Below are positions 9,157-13,918 of a stretch of 20,487 bases of DNA, piece by piece; the stretch's first letter is position 1; the number at the start of each line of letters is the position of its first letter. This DNA is from a virus. The stretch lies in the IMG/VR virus record IMGVR_UViG_3300048135_000367, positions 1 to 20,487 of that record; one strand, 5' to 3'. The position numbers were made by a program, and so were the translations under genes. Below the pieces are notes generated by a model. The model saw nothing but the letters and a program-made list of their open reading frames with translations. It did not search any database and had not been told where the DNA came from.

Positions 9157-9435
9157 CTATATCGCTAATGCTTGCGCTAAATGTTTAAAATAATGTACAA
9201 TATCTGCATTAATAAAGTCTAATTCTACTAATGTATTGTAAATTTGTTTTTGTTCTATTTCATTAGTTCTTTTCATCTCACTAACTACTGACTTGATTGG
9301 TATTAAATTTAAACCACTTTTACCCTCGACTTCTAATAGTTGAAATATATCAATATTTTTTTCTTCTATAAATGTATCAATAAATTTATTAAATCTTTGG
9401 TTTTTTTGGCTTTTATTATAAACTTGTATAGTCAT
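9157..9435 (-). CDS. First leftward early gene, unknown function
   Basis: 92 residues, helical and charged (NKSQKNQRFNKFIDTFIEEK, VVSEMKRTNEIEQKQIYNTL, ADIVHYFKHLAQAL). No known motif. GGAG about 8 nt before the ATG, together with the diverged leader-module copy C just upstream, makes it the first gene of the long leftward transcript. First genes of phage early operons often affect host takeover or regulation, but that is inference from position only. Confidence 0.65.
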   Translation of the reverse strand: MTIQVYNKSQKNQRFNKFIDTFIEEKNIDIFQLLEVEGKSGLNLIPIKSVVSEMKRTNEIEQKQIYNTLVELDFINADIVHYFKHLAQALAI

Positions 9436-9605
9436 TTTTTACTCCAGTAAATGGTTGCTTAATTGCAATATAGTTACACCTTAAATTGTATTTTTAGATC
9501 TGTAAACAAAATAATAGTAATTTTTTTACTTTACTTCTACGAATAAATAAATTACCCTACAACCATTACTAGGCGATTTTGCCACCAAATATAGGAGTTA
9601 GTAAT
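9436..9605. promoter_or_regulatory. Divergent control region between leftward and rightward operons
   Basis: 170 nt without a gene, very A+T-rich, between the divergent starts at 9435 and 9606. It holds leader-module copy C for the leftward side and the near-palindromic GTAATTTTTTTAC box at 9517-9529. The box is followed on the + strand by TTACTTTAC, as it is on the - strand in copies A and B. Promoters for both directions must lie here, since both flanking genes have their own ribosome sites. I cannot fix the -10 elements with confidence. An operator for one of the small HTH proteins is likely. Confidence 0.6.
9453..9529 (-). promoter_or_regulatory. Leader/promoter module, copy C (diverged)
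   Basis: In the leftward direction: GTAAAAAAATTAC (9529-9517), TTTACAG (9506-9500), TACAAT, then GCAATTAAGC (9466-9457) and AACC, ending about 17 nt before the ATG at 9435. Box order and box-to-start distance match copies A and B, but the distance between the outer boxes is about ten nucleotides longer. The outer G and C of the GGC...GCC pair are lost. Confidence 0.52.
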
Positions 9606-10223
9606 ATGAATAGTTTAGTTATAGATTATGACAAACCTGAGTATAAACGTCTTTATGAAGTTTATTTAGAGAAATTTAAACTTAGGCAAAACAAAGGTTC
9701 ACATGGAAAAAAAGATAGTGAAAGACAAAAGACATATGCCGCTGAAAGTATATATCGCAAAGCAATGAATATTAAATGTACATACCATGATGTTCGGCTT
9801 GATTCTGGAGCTTATAGAAATAGTGCATACGAATTTCACAATAAAATAGTTAATTCTAAAACATGGGCAAACCACACTAAATATCCAAGCATTAAGCCAC
9901 GAGCTACATTTTCTAGCAGACTAAGGGGTGCTAATGCAAACCGATATAGGGTTTTATATGGTGGACTAAGAGACAAAACTACAATAATACATGAACTAGC
10001 GCATAGTATAGGCAATCACCATCATGGCAGATCGTTTAGACAGTCACAAGTTATGCTAACAGGCAGGTTCTTAGGATCTGAACATAAAAAGGCACTCATG
10101 AAAGCTTACAAAAATGCAGGGCTTAGTTATGGTAAAGAGCGCAAACCAAAGACTTTCGAAAAGTATATCAATAATTATATTCACATGACGACTACACTAA
10201 ATCATCACAACAAGAAAGGTTAA
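9606..10223 (+). CDS. Zinc metallopeptidase-like protein (HExxH; SprT-like or TIGR04338-like)
   Basis: 205 residues from the ATG at 9606, which has AGGAG 8 nt upstream. A TTG nine codons earlier is less likely. A zincin motif HELAHSIGNHHHGRSF (H129, E130, H133, then H138-H140) is clear, with an HG..F spacing like SprT-type proteases. Upstream, ERQKTYAAES (residues 39-48) resembles the R..vY.AE start of the TIGR04338 putative metallohydrolase family. A basic C-terminal tail ends NHHNKKG. Possible roles are DNA-protein crosslink or host protein cleavage, but the substrate is unknown. It is the first gene of the rightward operon, so it would be expressed early. Confidence 0.75.
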   Translation: MNSLVIDYDKPEYKRLYEVYLEKFKLRQNKGSHGKKDSERQKTYAAESIYRKAMNIKCTYHDVRLDSGAYRNSAYEFHNKIVNSKTWANHTKYPSIKPRATFSSRLRGANANRYRVLYGGLRDKTTIIHELAHSIGNHHHGRSFRQSQVMLTGRFLGSEHKKALMKAYKNAGLSYGKERKPKTFEKYINNYIHMTTTLNHHNKKG

Positions 10224-10233
10224 TACAATTAAC

Positions 10234-10253
10234 ACCCTGTTTTCGGGCAGGGT
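10234..10253 (+). other. Intergenic hairpin ACCCTG-N8-CAGGGT
   Basis: A perfect 6-bp stem with an 8-nt loop (TTTTCGGG) between the metallopeptidase-like gene and the next gene. It is followed by AATAATTAAAG rather than a T run, so it is not a standard terminator. It may reduce readthrough, protect the upstream message, or mark a processing site. Confidence 0.5.
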
Positions 10254-10273
10254 AATAATTAAAGAGAAACATT

Positions 10274-10567
10274 ATGACTAAGATTAAAACAGTTTGGCAG
10301 AAACTTATAAAAACAGCCGCTAACAATTATCAAGATAATATGGTTGATTCACTCTACGTTGCAAAAGACAAAATTAATTGCGGTGATGAACCACTATCAG
10401 ACGCTTTTGCAATATTAGCAATAACAGCGCGTAATTTAAAAGACACTAAATTACAGAGAGCGACACTACATGATATAGAAACTCAAACACCAGATAGGCT
10501 ACAAGATCTAATTGAAATGGCGCTTAGCTACGACAAAAAGAGTAAAGAATTTAAATTAAATATATAA
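10274..10567 (+). CDS. Small phage protein of unknown function
   Basis: 97 residues, helical and charged (MTKIKTVWQKLIKTAANNYQ, LSDAFAILAITARNLKD, RLQDLIEMALSYDKKSKEFK). No motif is recognised. AAGAG lies about 8 nt before the ATG. It is the second gene of the rightward operon, separated from the first by a hairpin and from the third by 10 nt. Confidence 0.65.
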   Translation: MTKIKTVWQKLIKTAANNYQDNMVDSLYVAKDKINCGDEPLSDAFAILAITARNLKDTKLQRATLHDIETQTPDRLQDLIEMALSYDKKSKEFKLNI

Positions 10568-10577
10568 AGGTAAAATA

Positions 10578-10787
10578 ATGACTATTACGATAAAACAAAT
10601 AATCGAACAATGCGGTGGAACTAAACTGTTAAGTAAGAACTGCAATACACAATCACAAAGCGTAAACAAGTGGAAATACAATAATGGCATACCAGAAAAA
10701 CATTGGAGTACGATTATGAAATTATACGGTGCAGATCTAACGCCAGCAATATTACATGAGCTAAATGAAAGTATTAGAAATGATTGA
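10578..10787 (+). CDS. Cro/YdaS-like DNA-binding protein
   Basis: 69 residues. The start MTITIKQIIEQCGGTKLLSK, then NCNTQSQSVNKWKYNNGIPE and KHW, matches the YdaS/Cro-like pattern (..i...GG...la......svs.W...G.IP..hw). The recognition helix is at SQSVNKWKYN. Such proteins are transcription regulators of temperate-phage type. It may bind operators in the divergent region and balance the two operons. AAGG lies about 8 nt before the ATG. No partner repressor of full cI size and no integrase are in this window. Confidence 0.75.
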   Translation: MTITIKQIIEQCGGTKLLSKNCNTQSQSVNKWKYNNGIPEKHWSTIMKLYGADLTPAILHELNESIRND

Positions 10788-10959
10788 GCAGATTAAAGAC
10801 AAAACAGGTGTTATTACATTTTACACTAAACATCCTTACTATAATAAATTTAAGTATCGTAACGCCGTTATACGAGGTGACAAACGTGATCAACATAAGT
10901 GGCTTGTTAAAGTAAAGAAAGACATAACAAACGCGTTAGGCAGTAACTATGAAATTTAG
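10765..10959 (+). CDS. Small basic phage protein of unknown function
   Basis: 64 residues, basic and aromatic (FYTKHPYYNKFKYRNAVIRG, DKRDQHKWLVKVKKDITNAL). It overlaps the Cro-like gene by 23 nt. Another ATG at 10780 would reduce this to 8 nt, and neither start has a good ribosome site, so the first five residues are uncertain. Function unknown; a nucleic-acid-binding role would suit the charge. It overlaps the HNH gene by 11 nt. Confidence 0.6.
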   Translation: MKVLEMIEQIKDKTGVITFYTKHPYYNKFKYRNAVIRGDKRDQHKWLVKVKKDITNALGSNYEI

Positions 10960-11329
10960 TGAGCACCCTGATTACATTAAATACAAGCCATTAACTAAAA
11001 TGCAGTTTGGTAAACTACTTATTGAGCAAGATGGTAAATGCGCAACCTGTAAAGATCCTTTGGTATTTAAACCAAGGCACATACGAGAAGAACACTTACA
11101 TCAACGTGCGTTAGGCGGCAAACATGAATTGAGAAACATTTCACTGACTTGCATAAAGTGTGCAATCAAGAAAGATAAAGCAGACAGTTTAGCACGTAAA
11201 AAGTTACGCTCGCTACTTAAAACAACAAAGAAGTCACAGAAACCTAAGCAGAAAATACAAGGTCGTACTAAAATACAATCAAGAGGGTTTAAAAGTACTT
11301 ACAAACCAAACATACGGGAGATCGATTAA
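10949..11329 (+). CDS. HNH endonuclease
   Basis: 126 residues. Two cysteine pairs, C31-x2-C34 and C68-x2-C71, frame an HNH core: EEHLHQRALGGKHELRNISL (residues 47-66) with H49, H51 and N63, then TCIKCAIKKDK. The first pair and the E-H in place of the more common D-H fit the zinc-bound HNH branch. The C-terminal third is highly basic (ARKKLRSLLKTTKKSQKPKQ). HNH nucleases in phages serve in packaging, homing or host DNA breakdown. This one is in the rightward operon, away from the terminase genes. Its stop shares one base with the next start. Confidence 0.87.
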   Translation: MKFSEHPDYIKYKPLTKMQFGKLLIEQDGKCATCKDPLVFKPRHIREEHLHQRALGGKHELRNISLTCIKCAIKKDKADSLARKKLRSLLKTTKKSQKPKQKIQGRTKIQSRGFKSTYKPNIREID

Positions 11330-11631
11330 TGCCTTTTATACAAACATGGAATTGGATGGACAACATAGACGAATATATGGACATCTACTTTCTTAACCAA
11401 GAATGCGTACACGATGACGGTGAAGTCAGAAAGTACAAGTTTCATTTGTTTAGACGTGATGTTTATACTAACAAATTTAATTTTATTGAGACATTAAACT
11501 GGTGCTGTTATACACATTATGGCGCAGACAAGGCAACTGAGTTCTATGCGATCTGTGAGAAACATGAAGTAAACTATAAACAAGCCGCTAGCGTGGCCGA
11601 ACGGTTGTTCGGTGTACCTCGCCGAGCTTAG
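11329..11631 (+). CDS. Small phage protein of unknown function, last gene of rightward operon
   Basis: 100 residues, acidic and aromatic at the start (FIQTWNWMDNIDEYMDIYFL), with cysteines C24 and the pair in LNWCCYTHYG. No known domain. The ATG overlaps the HNH stop (TAATG), and GGGAG lies about 9 nt upstream. Its last 44 nt overlap, tail to tail, the end of the leftward metallophosphoesterase gene. The shared part contains a short hairpin. Confidence 0.66.
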   Translation: MPFIQTWNWMDNIDEYMDIYFLNQECVHDDGEVRKYKFHLFRRDVYTNKFNFIETLNWCCYTHYGADKATEFYAICEKHEVNYKQAASVAERLFGVPRRA

Positions 11632-12769
11632 AATGATATGTAATCACTTTAGCACCTCTTGCCGATACCCAACCGCCTCTGGCCGCATAAGCGTCTCTGG
11701 CTGATAATGTTGGGTGTTGCTCGACTATAGCACCTGCATCTTCAACTGTACGTTCGTGGTGCATATGGCCAGTGTGAATGTAAGCCTGTGTTGCTTGTCC
11801 CCACAACTTACGGAAACGTGGTTCACTAGCAAACAGCTTTGGCAGTTGTGCCATTCTTTTTTTATGCCCATGATGAAAGCCTAATAAGATCTCACCATGC
11901 AGATGTGCGTAATATGGGAATTCATTATCAACAACATTAACTCTGTCATCTTTACTAAATACATATTTAATATGCTTTCTAAGCCAAATCGAACCTGACA
12001 TATCATGGTTGCCTTCGGCCTGTACTACTACAACTTTACCAAATTTCTTTAGCATCATATGAACCGCTTCCGTCATTATCTCGATTGTTAGCTCAACAAG
12101 TTTACTATAGCGCGTATCAGCATCAAGAATATGCCCTGACATCGGCGTGATAGCCGTTATGCCATCGAAATGTAGAAAGTCACCTAATTGGCAAAGCACG
12201 CCTGTATCGGCTTTAGGTGCGGCTTCTATCATATCTGACACTGCATTAAGAAAAACACGTTTAGATATATTTACATCCCAATCGTCACCTGTTTCAGCTT
12301 CCCACGCGTACATCCCTAAGTGAAAGTCAGTAATCGTAATTAATGATAATAAGTCTTTATCTGTGTGCTTTACTTTAGGGCTTGGCTTAAATGGCTTATA
12401 GTTTTTATGCGTTTCTTCAATCGCTTGTAACATAATCTCATGTTGACGCTCTTTGTCACCAACCGTCTTAACCCACTGTCCTGTTGGCTGTCCATTCGCA
12501 TTGTAATAAGTGCTTACGCCTTTGACTTGAAATCCGTCTGGTGCAGTAGCAGTCATATCATGCTCTGGTGCATAGCCTTTGCGTGCGGCTCTTGCTTTAA
12601 CTGCACTACAAATTGTGTATATAACTCTGCTAGTTAATCCAAAAGATGCGGCAATTTCATCAACCGTTTTATCTGCAATACGTTGATTTATAACAGTAGT
12701 CTCACGCTCAGTAATACAATATTCACTAAGTTCCGACCAATTTACTTTGCTTTTCTTTGTAAAACCCAT
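11588..12769 (-). CDS. Metallophosphoesterase with N-terminal helix-turn-helix
   Basis: 393 residues from the ATG at 12767-12769. The calcineurin-like pattern is complete: D148-x-H150 (ITDFHLG), GD197 (QLGDFLHFDG), GNH255D (AEGNHDMSGS), FHHGH (H299-H302) and TGHMHH (H332-H338). These are the expected two-metal ligands. Residues about 24-58 (INQRIADKTVDEIAASFGLT, then SRVIYTICSAVK) form a helix-turn-helix. The protein may be a DNA-targeted nuclease or phosphatase; the substrate is unknown. A TTG start 13 codons upstream is possible but has a poorer ribosome site than the GAGAAG before this ATG. It follows the endolysin and converges with the rightward operon. Confidence 0.88.
   Translation of the reverse strand: MGFTKKSKVNWSELSEYCITERETTVINQRIADKTVDEIAASFGLTSRVIYTICSAVKARAARKGYAPEHDMTATAPDGFQVKGVSTYYNANGQPTGQWVKTVGDKERQHEIMLQAIEETHKNYKPFKPSPKVKHTDKDLLSLITITDFHLGMYAWEAETGDDWDVNISKRVFLNAVSDMIEAAPKADTGVLCQLGDFLHFDGITAITPMSGHILDADTRYSKLVELTIEIMTEAVHMMLKKFGKVVVVQAEGNHDMSGSIWLRKHIKYVFSKDDRVNVVDNEFPYYAHLHGEILLGFHHGHKKRMAQLPKLFASEPRFRKLWGQATQAYIHTGHMHHERTVEDAGAIVEQHPTLSARDAYAARGGWVSARGAKVITYHSKLGEVHRTTVRPR
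11597..11612. other. Hairpin in the convergent overlap (CCGAAC-GGTT-GTTCGG)
   Basis: A perfect 6-bp stem with a GGTT loop, lying where the rightward 11631 gene and the leftward metallophosphoesterase gene overlap. It is coding in both. There is no T run on either side, so it is not a standard terminator. It could slow convergent transcripts or pair between them. Confidence 0.5.
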
Positions 12770-12804
12770 TTGCTTCTCACTTCTTTCTATGCTAACGAAA
12801 TGGA

Positions 12805-12833
12805 ACAAGGTTTCTTATCCCCTATTTCCTTGT
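12805..12833. repeat. Inverted repeat ACAAGG / CCTTGT in the endolysin-metallophosphoesterase gap
   Basis: Two perfect 6-nt arms (12805-12810 and 12828-12833) flank a 17-nt spacer in the 71-nt gap between the two leftward genes. Apart from this and the terminator at its edge, I see nothing else in the gap. It could be an operator or a weak RNA hairpin; chance is quite possible. Confidence 0.3.
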
Positions 12834-12840
12834 AGCAAAC

Positions 12841-13254
12841 TTAGAGGCTACTTAATTGTGGCCTCTTTTTTTTTAGTTGAAAGTGTGGCATATCAATAAA
12901 TGATTTCCATAAACCACCCCATTCTAGTTGAACACCTAATTGGCTGGCTGATTGTAGCATAGCTGTTGCAACCATTGTTAAGTGTTGTTCGTTCCAAGAT
13001 GCTTTGCCATCAACATAAGCATATACGTCTAACGCCTCACCTGTTTGGTGTGCGCTAATCTTTTCATATCCATCGCACTTAGATAAGCCAGCTGTAAATA
13101 GTTCATATTGCTCTGCTTGTGTACGCAAGCCACCATGCAGTGGTATGCCAAAATCAATCTTAGTAATCTGTATAGCAAGCCTTGCTACTTTGTATATATC
13201 GGGGTCAACACCAAGCAGACGATTGCTACTACTTTTGCTAAATCTAAATGGCAT
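12841..13254 (-). CDS. Endolysin, M15-family (VanY/L-Ala-D-Glu type) zinc peptidase
   Basis: 137 residues. Seen: PLHGGLRTQAEQYELFTAGL (residues 38-57), then SAHQTGEALDVYAY with H69 and D76, and EWGGLWKSFIDMPHFQL with D121 and H124. This matches the H-x6-D ... W-(K)-x2-D-x2-H arrangement of single-domain phage M15 endolysins such as that of T5. The three zinc ligands (H69, D76, H124) and the catalytic acid D121 are present. No cell-wall-binding domain and no signal peptide are seen, so release depends on the holin gene just before it (TAATG overlap). The last codons form part of a + strand terminator. Confidence 0.9.
   Translation of the reverse strand: MPFRFSKSSSNRLLGVDPDIYKVARLAIQITKIDFGIPLHGGLRTQAEQYELFTAGLSKCDGYEKISAHQTGEALDVYAYVDGKASWNEQHLTMVATAMLQSASQLGVQLEWGGLWKSFIDMPHFQLKKKRPQLSSL
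12843..12874 (+). terminator. Rho-independent terminator for rightward transcription
   Basis: On the + strand AGAGGCTAC pairs with GTGGCCTCT (9 bp with one G-U), closing a 6-nt TTAATT loop, followed directly by an uninterrupted T run. It lies in the 3' end of the leftward endolysin gene. It would stop transcripts that started in the rightward operon and read on antisense through the metallophosphoesterase gene. The reverse strand lacks a T run after the stem, so it does not serve the leftward genes. Confidence 0.85.
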
Positions 13255-13670
13255 TACTCGCCTGTACTTTTGTAGGTTTTGATAGCTTTTTCTACTGATC
13301 TACCACCAATATAACCACCTACGCCTAACGTGATTAAGTTCCACAAGCTTTGATACTCTTTTTCTGTCATGCCTTCAGCCTCAAAGCCAAGAAAACGTGC
13401 TACAACTAATCCCGTAAACGTAAGCATAACTAATGGCCGCCAATTAGCTGTCAACCAATGTTCTGAGCTTGCTTCGCTGTTTACGATCTTGGCCTGTCCC
13501 ATAAGCAACTCTGTGTTGTACTCATGCACCCTGTCCATCGCTCGACCTTGTACCTCAAGTAATAGCCGCTTCTGCTCAAGCTTTTCTTCCTTAGACGTAT
13601 GTAAGTTGTCTATTAGTTCCGTAGCAGGTTTAAATATTCCTGCTATAAGTTCTGTTATACCAAGGCTCAT
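13254..13670 (-). CDS. Holin-like protein, GTA_holin_3TM type
   Basis: 138 residues. After a helical, charged first half comes TANWRPLVMLTFTGLVVARF (residues about 74-93), the first strong membrane segment. A second follows at about 108-126 (LWNLITLGVGGYIGGRS), with the closing R-S-x-E-K. The NWRP..ML..T and GGYIGGRS.EK signatures are those I know from the holins linked to gene transfer agents and many alphaproteobacterial and marine phages. The N-terminal ITELIAGIFKP may form a third amphipathic helix. It lies between the 13918 membrane protein (ATGA overlap) and the endolysin (TAATG overlap), a standard lysis cassette. AAAGG precedes the ATG. Confidence 0.85.
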   Translation of the reverse strand: MSLGITELIAGIFKPATELIDNLHTSKEEKLEQKRLLLEVQGRAMDRVHEYNTELLMGQAKIVNSEASSEHWLTANWRPLVMLTFTGLVVARFLGFEAEGMTEKEYQSLWNLITLGVGGYIGGRSVEKAIKTYKSTGE

Positions 13671-13918
13671 TTATCGGCCTTTGCATCTAACTTTTGATCA
13701 ATGCTATCTAACTTGGTAAATAATCTTTCGATTGTGTTAATAAATTCATCACGCTTTACGTAATTACCCGCAACAGCAACCTCTATGGCTGATAGCTTTT
13801 CATTAATGTCTTTATCAGTTCGTTCTAGTTCTTTTACACTATTGTAAATTGACGATATAACTGCGCCTATAATAACGCTTAGACCGCCTAATAATACGTT
13901 TATGAGATTTTGTTCCAT
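13667..13918 (-). CDS. Membrane/coiled-coil lysis-cassette protein (possible spanin- or XhlA-like)
   Basis: 83 residues from the ATG at 13916-13918. An N-terminal membrane segment (NLINVLLGGLSVIIGAVISS) is followed by a heptad-like coiled coil to the C-terminus (VKELERTDKDINEKLSAIEV, RDEFINTIERLFTKLDSIDQ, KLDAKADK). Similar small proteins often precede the holin and endolysin in phages and are named spanin-, holin-accessory- or XhlA-like. No second (outer) spanin lipoprotein is seen. GGTGG stands about 6 nt before this ATG. A GTG three codons upstream is the alternative start. The gene begins 19 nt inside the upstream gene. Confidence 0.68.
   Translation of the reverse strand: MEQNLINVLLGGLSVIIGAVISSIYNSVKELERTDKDINEKLSAIEVAVAGNYVKRDEFINTIERLFTKLDSIDQKLDAKADK

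Follow-up and report, generated by a model that had tools for sequence, protein, structure and literature searches.

A conserved predicted terminator inside the end of an opposed endolysin gene suggests antisense read-through of a metallophosphoesterase gene in a phage clade

Intrinsic (Rho-independent) terminators combine a G+C-containing stem, a short loop and a T-run, and compensatory and G-U changes have been described for them (PMC5381666, available text). One subtype of the excludon consists of convergent genes that overlap through a long 3′ UTR with no terminator between them and, in the available portion of the source, mutual repression is its defining behavior (PMC7154746). The same portion of that source reports noncontiguous operons, in which the transcript spans a gene running in the opposite direction, for S. 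aureus phages (PMC7154746). In phage LUZ100, antisense RNA has been seen in RNA data from the structural region, its role being given as unknown in the accessible part of the report (PMC10134795).

The locus described here has the stem, loop, T-run and compensatory and G-U changes of an intrinsic terminator but, unlike a typical one, lies wholly within coding sequence, at the end of an opposed gene. With the excludon it shares convergent genes that have no strong stop between them (a weaker candidate, at 11818–11854, is present), so that the predicted mRNA of one gene would also be antisense to the other. In contrast to the excludon, which is defined by mutual repression, the layout in our phage clade is predicted from sequence, belongs to a phage and is bounded by one conserved terminator. 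The noncontiguous operon likewise has an opposite-direction gene inside the proposed transcript, but we rejected this class because no rightward gene follows that gene before the terminator. LUZ100 offers a parallel, with antisense RNA from a late region of the phage; in the clade such RNA is deduced from the DNA. We conclude that the layout resembles the long 3′ overlap type of excludon and is ordinary in kind, and that the position of the terminator, between two co-directional genes, is modestly unusual.

The window, which is the whole of virus record IMGVR_UViG_3300048135_000367 (20,487 bases), carries leftward replication and terminase genes in its left part, then a short rightward set (9579–11631) and then leftward genes for a metallophosphoesterase (MPPE), an endolysin, a holin and tail proteins. 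MPPE (11588–12769, − strand; phrog_704, DNA repair exonuclease) has an ATG start at 12769, as judged from alignment. The endolysin gene (12841–13254, − strand; Peptidase_M15_4, phrog_465) is neighbored by a gene for a GTA-type holin. The rightward set closes with the unit p64–HNH–p100 (10765–11631, + strand), and the p100 stop at 11631 is the last rightward stop and gives a 44 bp overlap with the 3′ end of MPPE. This unit is kept beside MPPE in the clade and is convergent with it in 12 of 12 clade loci, a comparison in which the L010 contig starts within p100 and the L011 contig just before p64. The upstream rightward genes (9579–10787, + strand), encoding proteins of 214 aa and 97 aa and a YdaS/Cro-like protein, are variable between relatives. 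The YdaS/Cro-like gene (10578–10787) is rightward in the window, whereas L004, L009 and L012 have the homologue in leftward orientation, so the regulatory end of the operon has been rearranged in the clade.

At 12843–12874 on the + strand, within the end of the endolysin gene and about 1.2 kb beyond the stop codon of the last rightward gene, lies a predicted intrinsic terminator for rightward transcription with a stem at 12843–12866 (nine pairs and a loop of six) and a T-run at 12866–12874. A sequence-only reading of this DNA had placed a terminator here, and its structure, its score, the shuffle tests and the gene coordinates all agree with that proposal. By a simple score of our own that combines hairpin energy and T-run, the element reaches 36.4, the highest value among 58 candidates on both strands of the whole window and one that was never attained when the window was dinucleotide-shuffled 40 times. 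Its + strand fold has an energy of −15.3 kcal/mol, and none of 200 shuffles was as good; the copy of the stem on the − strand folds more weakly (−10.9 kcal/mol). A stable stem-loop followed immediately by a T-run, beyond what chance provides, is thus present. A bidirectional terminator would have a T-run on both strands; no − strand candidate was found at the stem, so the terminator appears to be one-way. The same reading had called this the only strong + strand terminator, which holds insofar as it is the strongest, but two weaker + strand candidates intervene, at 11818–11854 (score 23.0) and 12361–12401 (score 24.1).

The last codons of the endolysin gene are the reverse of the terminator, and the T-run corresponds to lysine codons on the opposite strand. 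Clade endolysins have an additional C-terminal tail (KKKRPQLSSL in the window; 12841–12880) which is the terminator read backwards. Among 30 more distant relatives of the endolysin that were compared at their ends, most stop near where the terminator would begin, which suggests that the tail in the clade is a by-product of this overlap. Terminators hidden in the ends of opposed genes would mark true transcript ends that gene maps miss.

The terminator occupies the same place in all 12 clade loci from IMG/VR that reach the site, whose endolysins are 88–93% identical; partial clade loci ending within MPPE (L102, L103, L104/L199 and L160/L086) are outside these counts of 12, with L160 and L199 used solely for the candidate at 11818–11854. 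The identical rows L097, L100 and L101 were excluded from distinct-sequence counts (promoter, synonymous-change and ORF comparisons) and likewise from the clade scan for terminators. Thirteen sequences reduce to six distinct stems, in which 54 of 54 pairs form on the + strand, the helix being paired 100% on + and 88.9% on −, with the caveats that endolysin codons could bias pair counts somewhat and that the sequences are related. All six imperfect pairs among these stems are G-U on the + strand and A-C mismatches on the − strand, the mirror kind (G-U on the − strand only) occurs zero times, and two pairs are changed on both sides. The T-run lies 3′ of the stem on the + strand only and is kept in all rows. 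The structure thus appears to be maintained by selection in the relatives. Because the G-U pairs are confined to the + strand and all pairs are kept on it, selection probably acts on the rightward RNA, and the polarity of the pairs matches what is predicted for such selection. The earlier claim that rightward RNA reaches 12843 is in this way well supported, indirectly, by the compensatory changes and the + strand-only wobble pairs. Strand polarity of wobble pairs offers a cheap test of which strand is transcribed where RNA data are lacking.

A counter-oriented terminator at the endolysin stop is present in 14 of 80 endolysin loci, namely the 12 clade loci, L014 and L017, and is lacking in 66. 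Outside the clade (n = 68), a co-directional ORF lies at most 150 nt from the endolysin gene in 61 loci, none of which has the terminator; the largest neighboring ORF is opposed to the endolysin in two (L014 and L017), both of which have it; and the neighbor is unclear in five, with the terminator in none. L014 and L017 represent a different phage with a related holin and endolysin and no MPPE there. At the endolysin stop each carries a strong terminator of its own in opposed orientation (L014:6375–6410 and L017:6380–6410), which faces a convergent operon.

HNH relatives outside the clade show no strong + strand terminator after HNH, and their later genes, where identified, are rightward. MPPE follows the endolysin gene directly solely in the clade, among the loci examined; its homologues outside the clade follow other genes, and where their upstream sequence was compared the endolysin end was absent from it. 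Searches via p100, holin and HNH found no relative that lacks MPPE but has the terminator beside the p100 operon, and for this reason an insertion of MPPE is something we infer.

As to the origin of rightward RNA across MPPE, the + strand of 11632–12842 contains no promoter-like site matching at least 9 of 12 consensus positions, and a relaxed position-weight scan of the + strand of MPPE gave weak sites only, none clearly above background; these scans assume sigma-70-type promoters. A dedicated antisense promoter was set aside on these results and is retained as a minor rival. A hidden rightward gene over MPPE was likewise rejected, since none of five + strand ORFs of at least 50 aa in 11714–12899 is conserved, stops or frame changes being found in most of nine distinct relatives. 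Nothing convincing was seen in the MPPE leader as a dedicated leftward MPPE promoter, and positions 9400–13400 have no match to a known RNA family in Rfam at E up to 1. Since neither a conserved gene nor a convincing promoter was seen on the + strand between the operon and the terminator, read-through from p64–HNH–p100 across MPPE is the likeliest and simplest source of rightward RNA at the terminator.

We therefore favor, with reasonable though incomplete confidence, a reading in which the one-way terminator mainly insulates the late genes while operon read-through covers MPPE in antisense at least partly. A host-type RNA polymerase would leave the p64–HNH–p100 operon, meet no strong stop at 11631, continue antisense through MPPE (11632–12842, + strand, a presumptive long 3′ UTR of the rightward transcript) and be released at about 12874 before entering the leftward lysis and tail genes; MPPE, lying in this buffer zone, would receive antisense RNA wholly or in part. 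The insulating role is favored because the terminator, in other endolysin loci, occurs only where a convergent operon abuts the endolysin gene, although L014 and L017, as near relatives, supply about one independent case for this argument. Against it, the immediate neighbor of the terminator, MPPE, is co-directional with the endolysin gene, so a boundary role needs 1.2 kb of read-through, and the inner candidate at 11818–11854 could stop much of the RNA. It is possible, at rather long odds, that rightward RNA ends mostly at this inner site and that the terminator at 12843 is a back-up. The site is a weak candidate within MPPE, a + strand hairpin 0.2 kb past the operon, found in 10 of 10 distinct clade sequences with scores of 20.0–28.1, and the homologous place scores lower in most MPPEs outside the clade; yet its T-run is interrupted, 32% of codon shuffles that preserve the MPPE protein of the window gene equal its score, L127 and L128 outside the clade reach 25.4 and share its Lys codons, and there is no excess synonymous conservation at 11818–11854 (p 0.30). 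Protein constraint on MPPE may explain the conservation of this candidate, which could nonetheless end some rightward RNA early. That the stem instead acts in leftward mRNA between endolysin and MPPE, in processing or translation control, seems highly improbable: the stem does fold on the − strand, though more weakly, but its six imperfect pairs pair on the + strand only, the T-run follows the stem on that strand only, and on the − strand the site is translated as endolysin.

The sequence-only reading had gone further than insulation, proposing that rightward RNA antisense to all of MPPE silences it early and that late leftward transcription then releases it, an excludon-type switch. The conserved convergent layout, the 3′ overlap of the two genes and the position beyond MPPE of the sole strong + strand stop are in keeping with this, as is the fact that other phages have MPPE elsewhere and not after the endolysin gene, from which it follows that the transcription of MPPE in the clade is probably linked to that of late leftward RNA. 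However, the operon is taken to be early on account of its gene content, the timing of MPPE could be set by any of the leader hairpin, the inner candidate and ordinary control of late promoters, and the insulating role accounts for the terminator by itself; we regard such a switch as doubtful, and insulation of the lysis and tail genes as better supported than this silencing and timing mechanism. Slightly more doubtful still is the fuller scenario in which MPPE was inserted between an early operon and a terminator that formerly guarded the late genes, and early antisense RNA over the whole of MPPE times its expression; the locus would then be a phage-borne excludon, maintained among sequences of about 80% identity. 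Should antisense control of MPPE be demonstrated, phages of this kind would provide a clear example of an excludon. A short + strand antisense RNA that starts within MPPE, extends over the start and leader of that gene and has its 3′ end at the terminator, in the manner of the OOP RNA of phage lambda, is in our estimate quite unlikely. The hairpin at 12805–12833 and the terminator together resemble an RNA 3′ end, both being kept in the clade, and all 10 rows have a weak + strand promoter-like site (TTTAGG-17-TATAGT/TATAAT) with its −10 at 12397; but this site scores 5.7 to 7.3, which is above the 99th but below the 99.9th percentile of all positions, and the absence of a consensus + strand promoter in 11632–12842 and of an Rfam match also counts against such an RNA. 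Around the site, from 12350 to 12454, MPPE shows little synonymous change in the clade, a signal that is only marginal once corrected (p 0.04 for 25 codons, 0.17–0.20 for 10 and 15).

The hairpin in the MPPE leader is a second inverted repeat (12805–12833, assigned to neither strand) of the form ACAAGG-N17-CCTTGT, a type found in 3 of 100 shuffles of the window. Its loop core, TTATCCCC on the + strand and GGGGATAA on the − strand, is the same in all 10 clade rows, whereas its flanks vary, and the ACARGGA part of the repeat is reminiscent of CsrA sites.

No clade member was found in the phage collection, in which the best DNA match of 11000–13700 covers 11% at 69%, and literature searches found no paper on this phage clade. 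A search of genome contigs with p100 for a prophage host gave no match, and the corresponding MPPE search returned distant Stutzerimonas loci only (41–46%). The terminase is about 51% identical to those of Escherichia and Raoultella phages among the matches listed; XY1, one of these phages, belongs to Guernseyvirinae, and these terminase matches suggest a gammaproteobacterial host.
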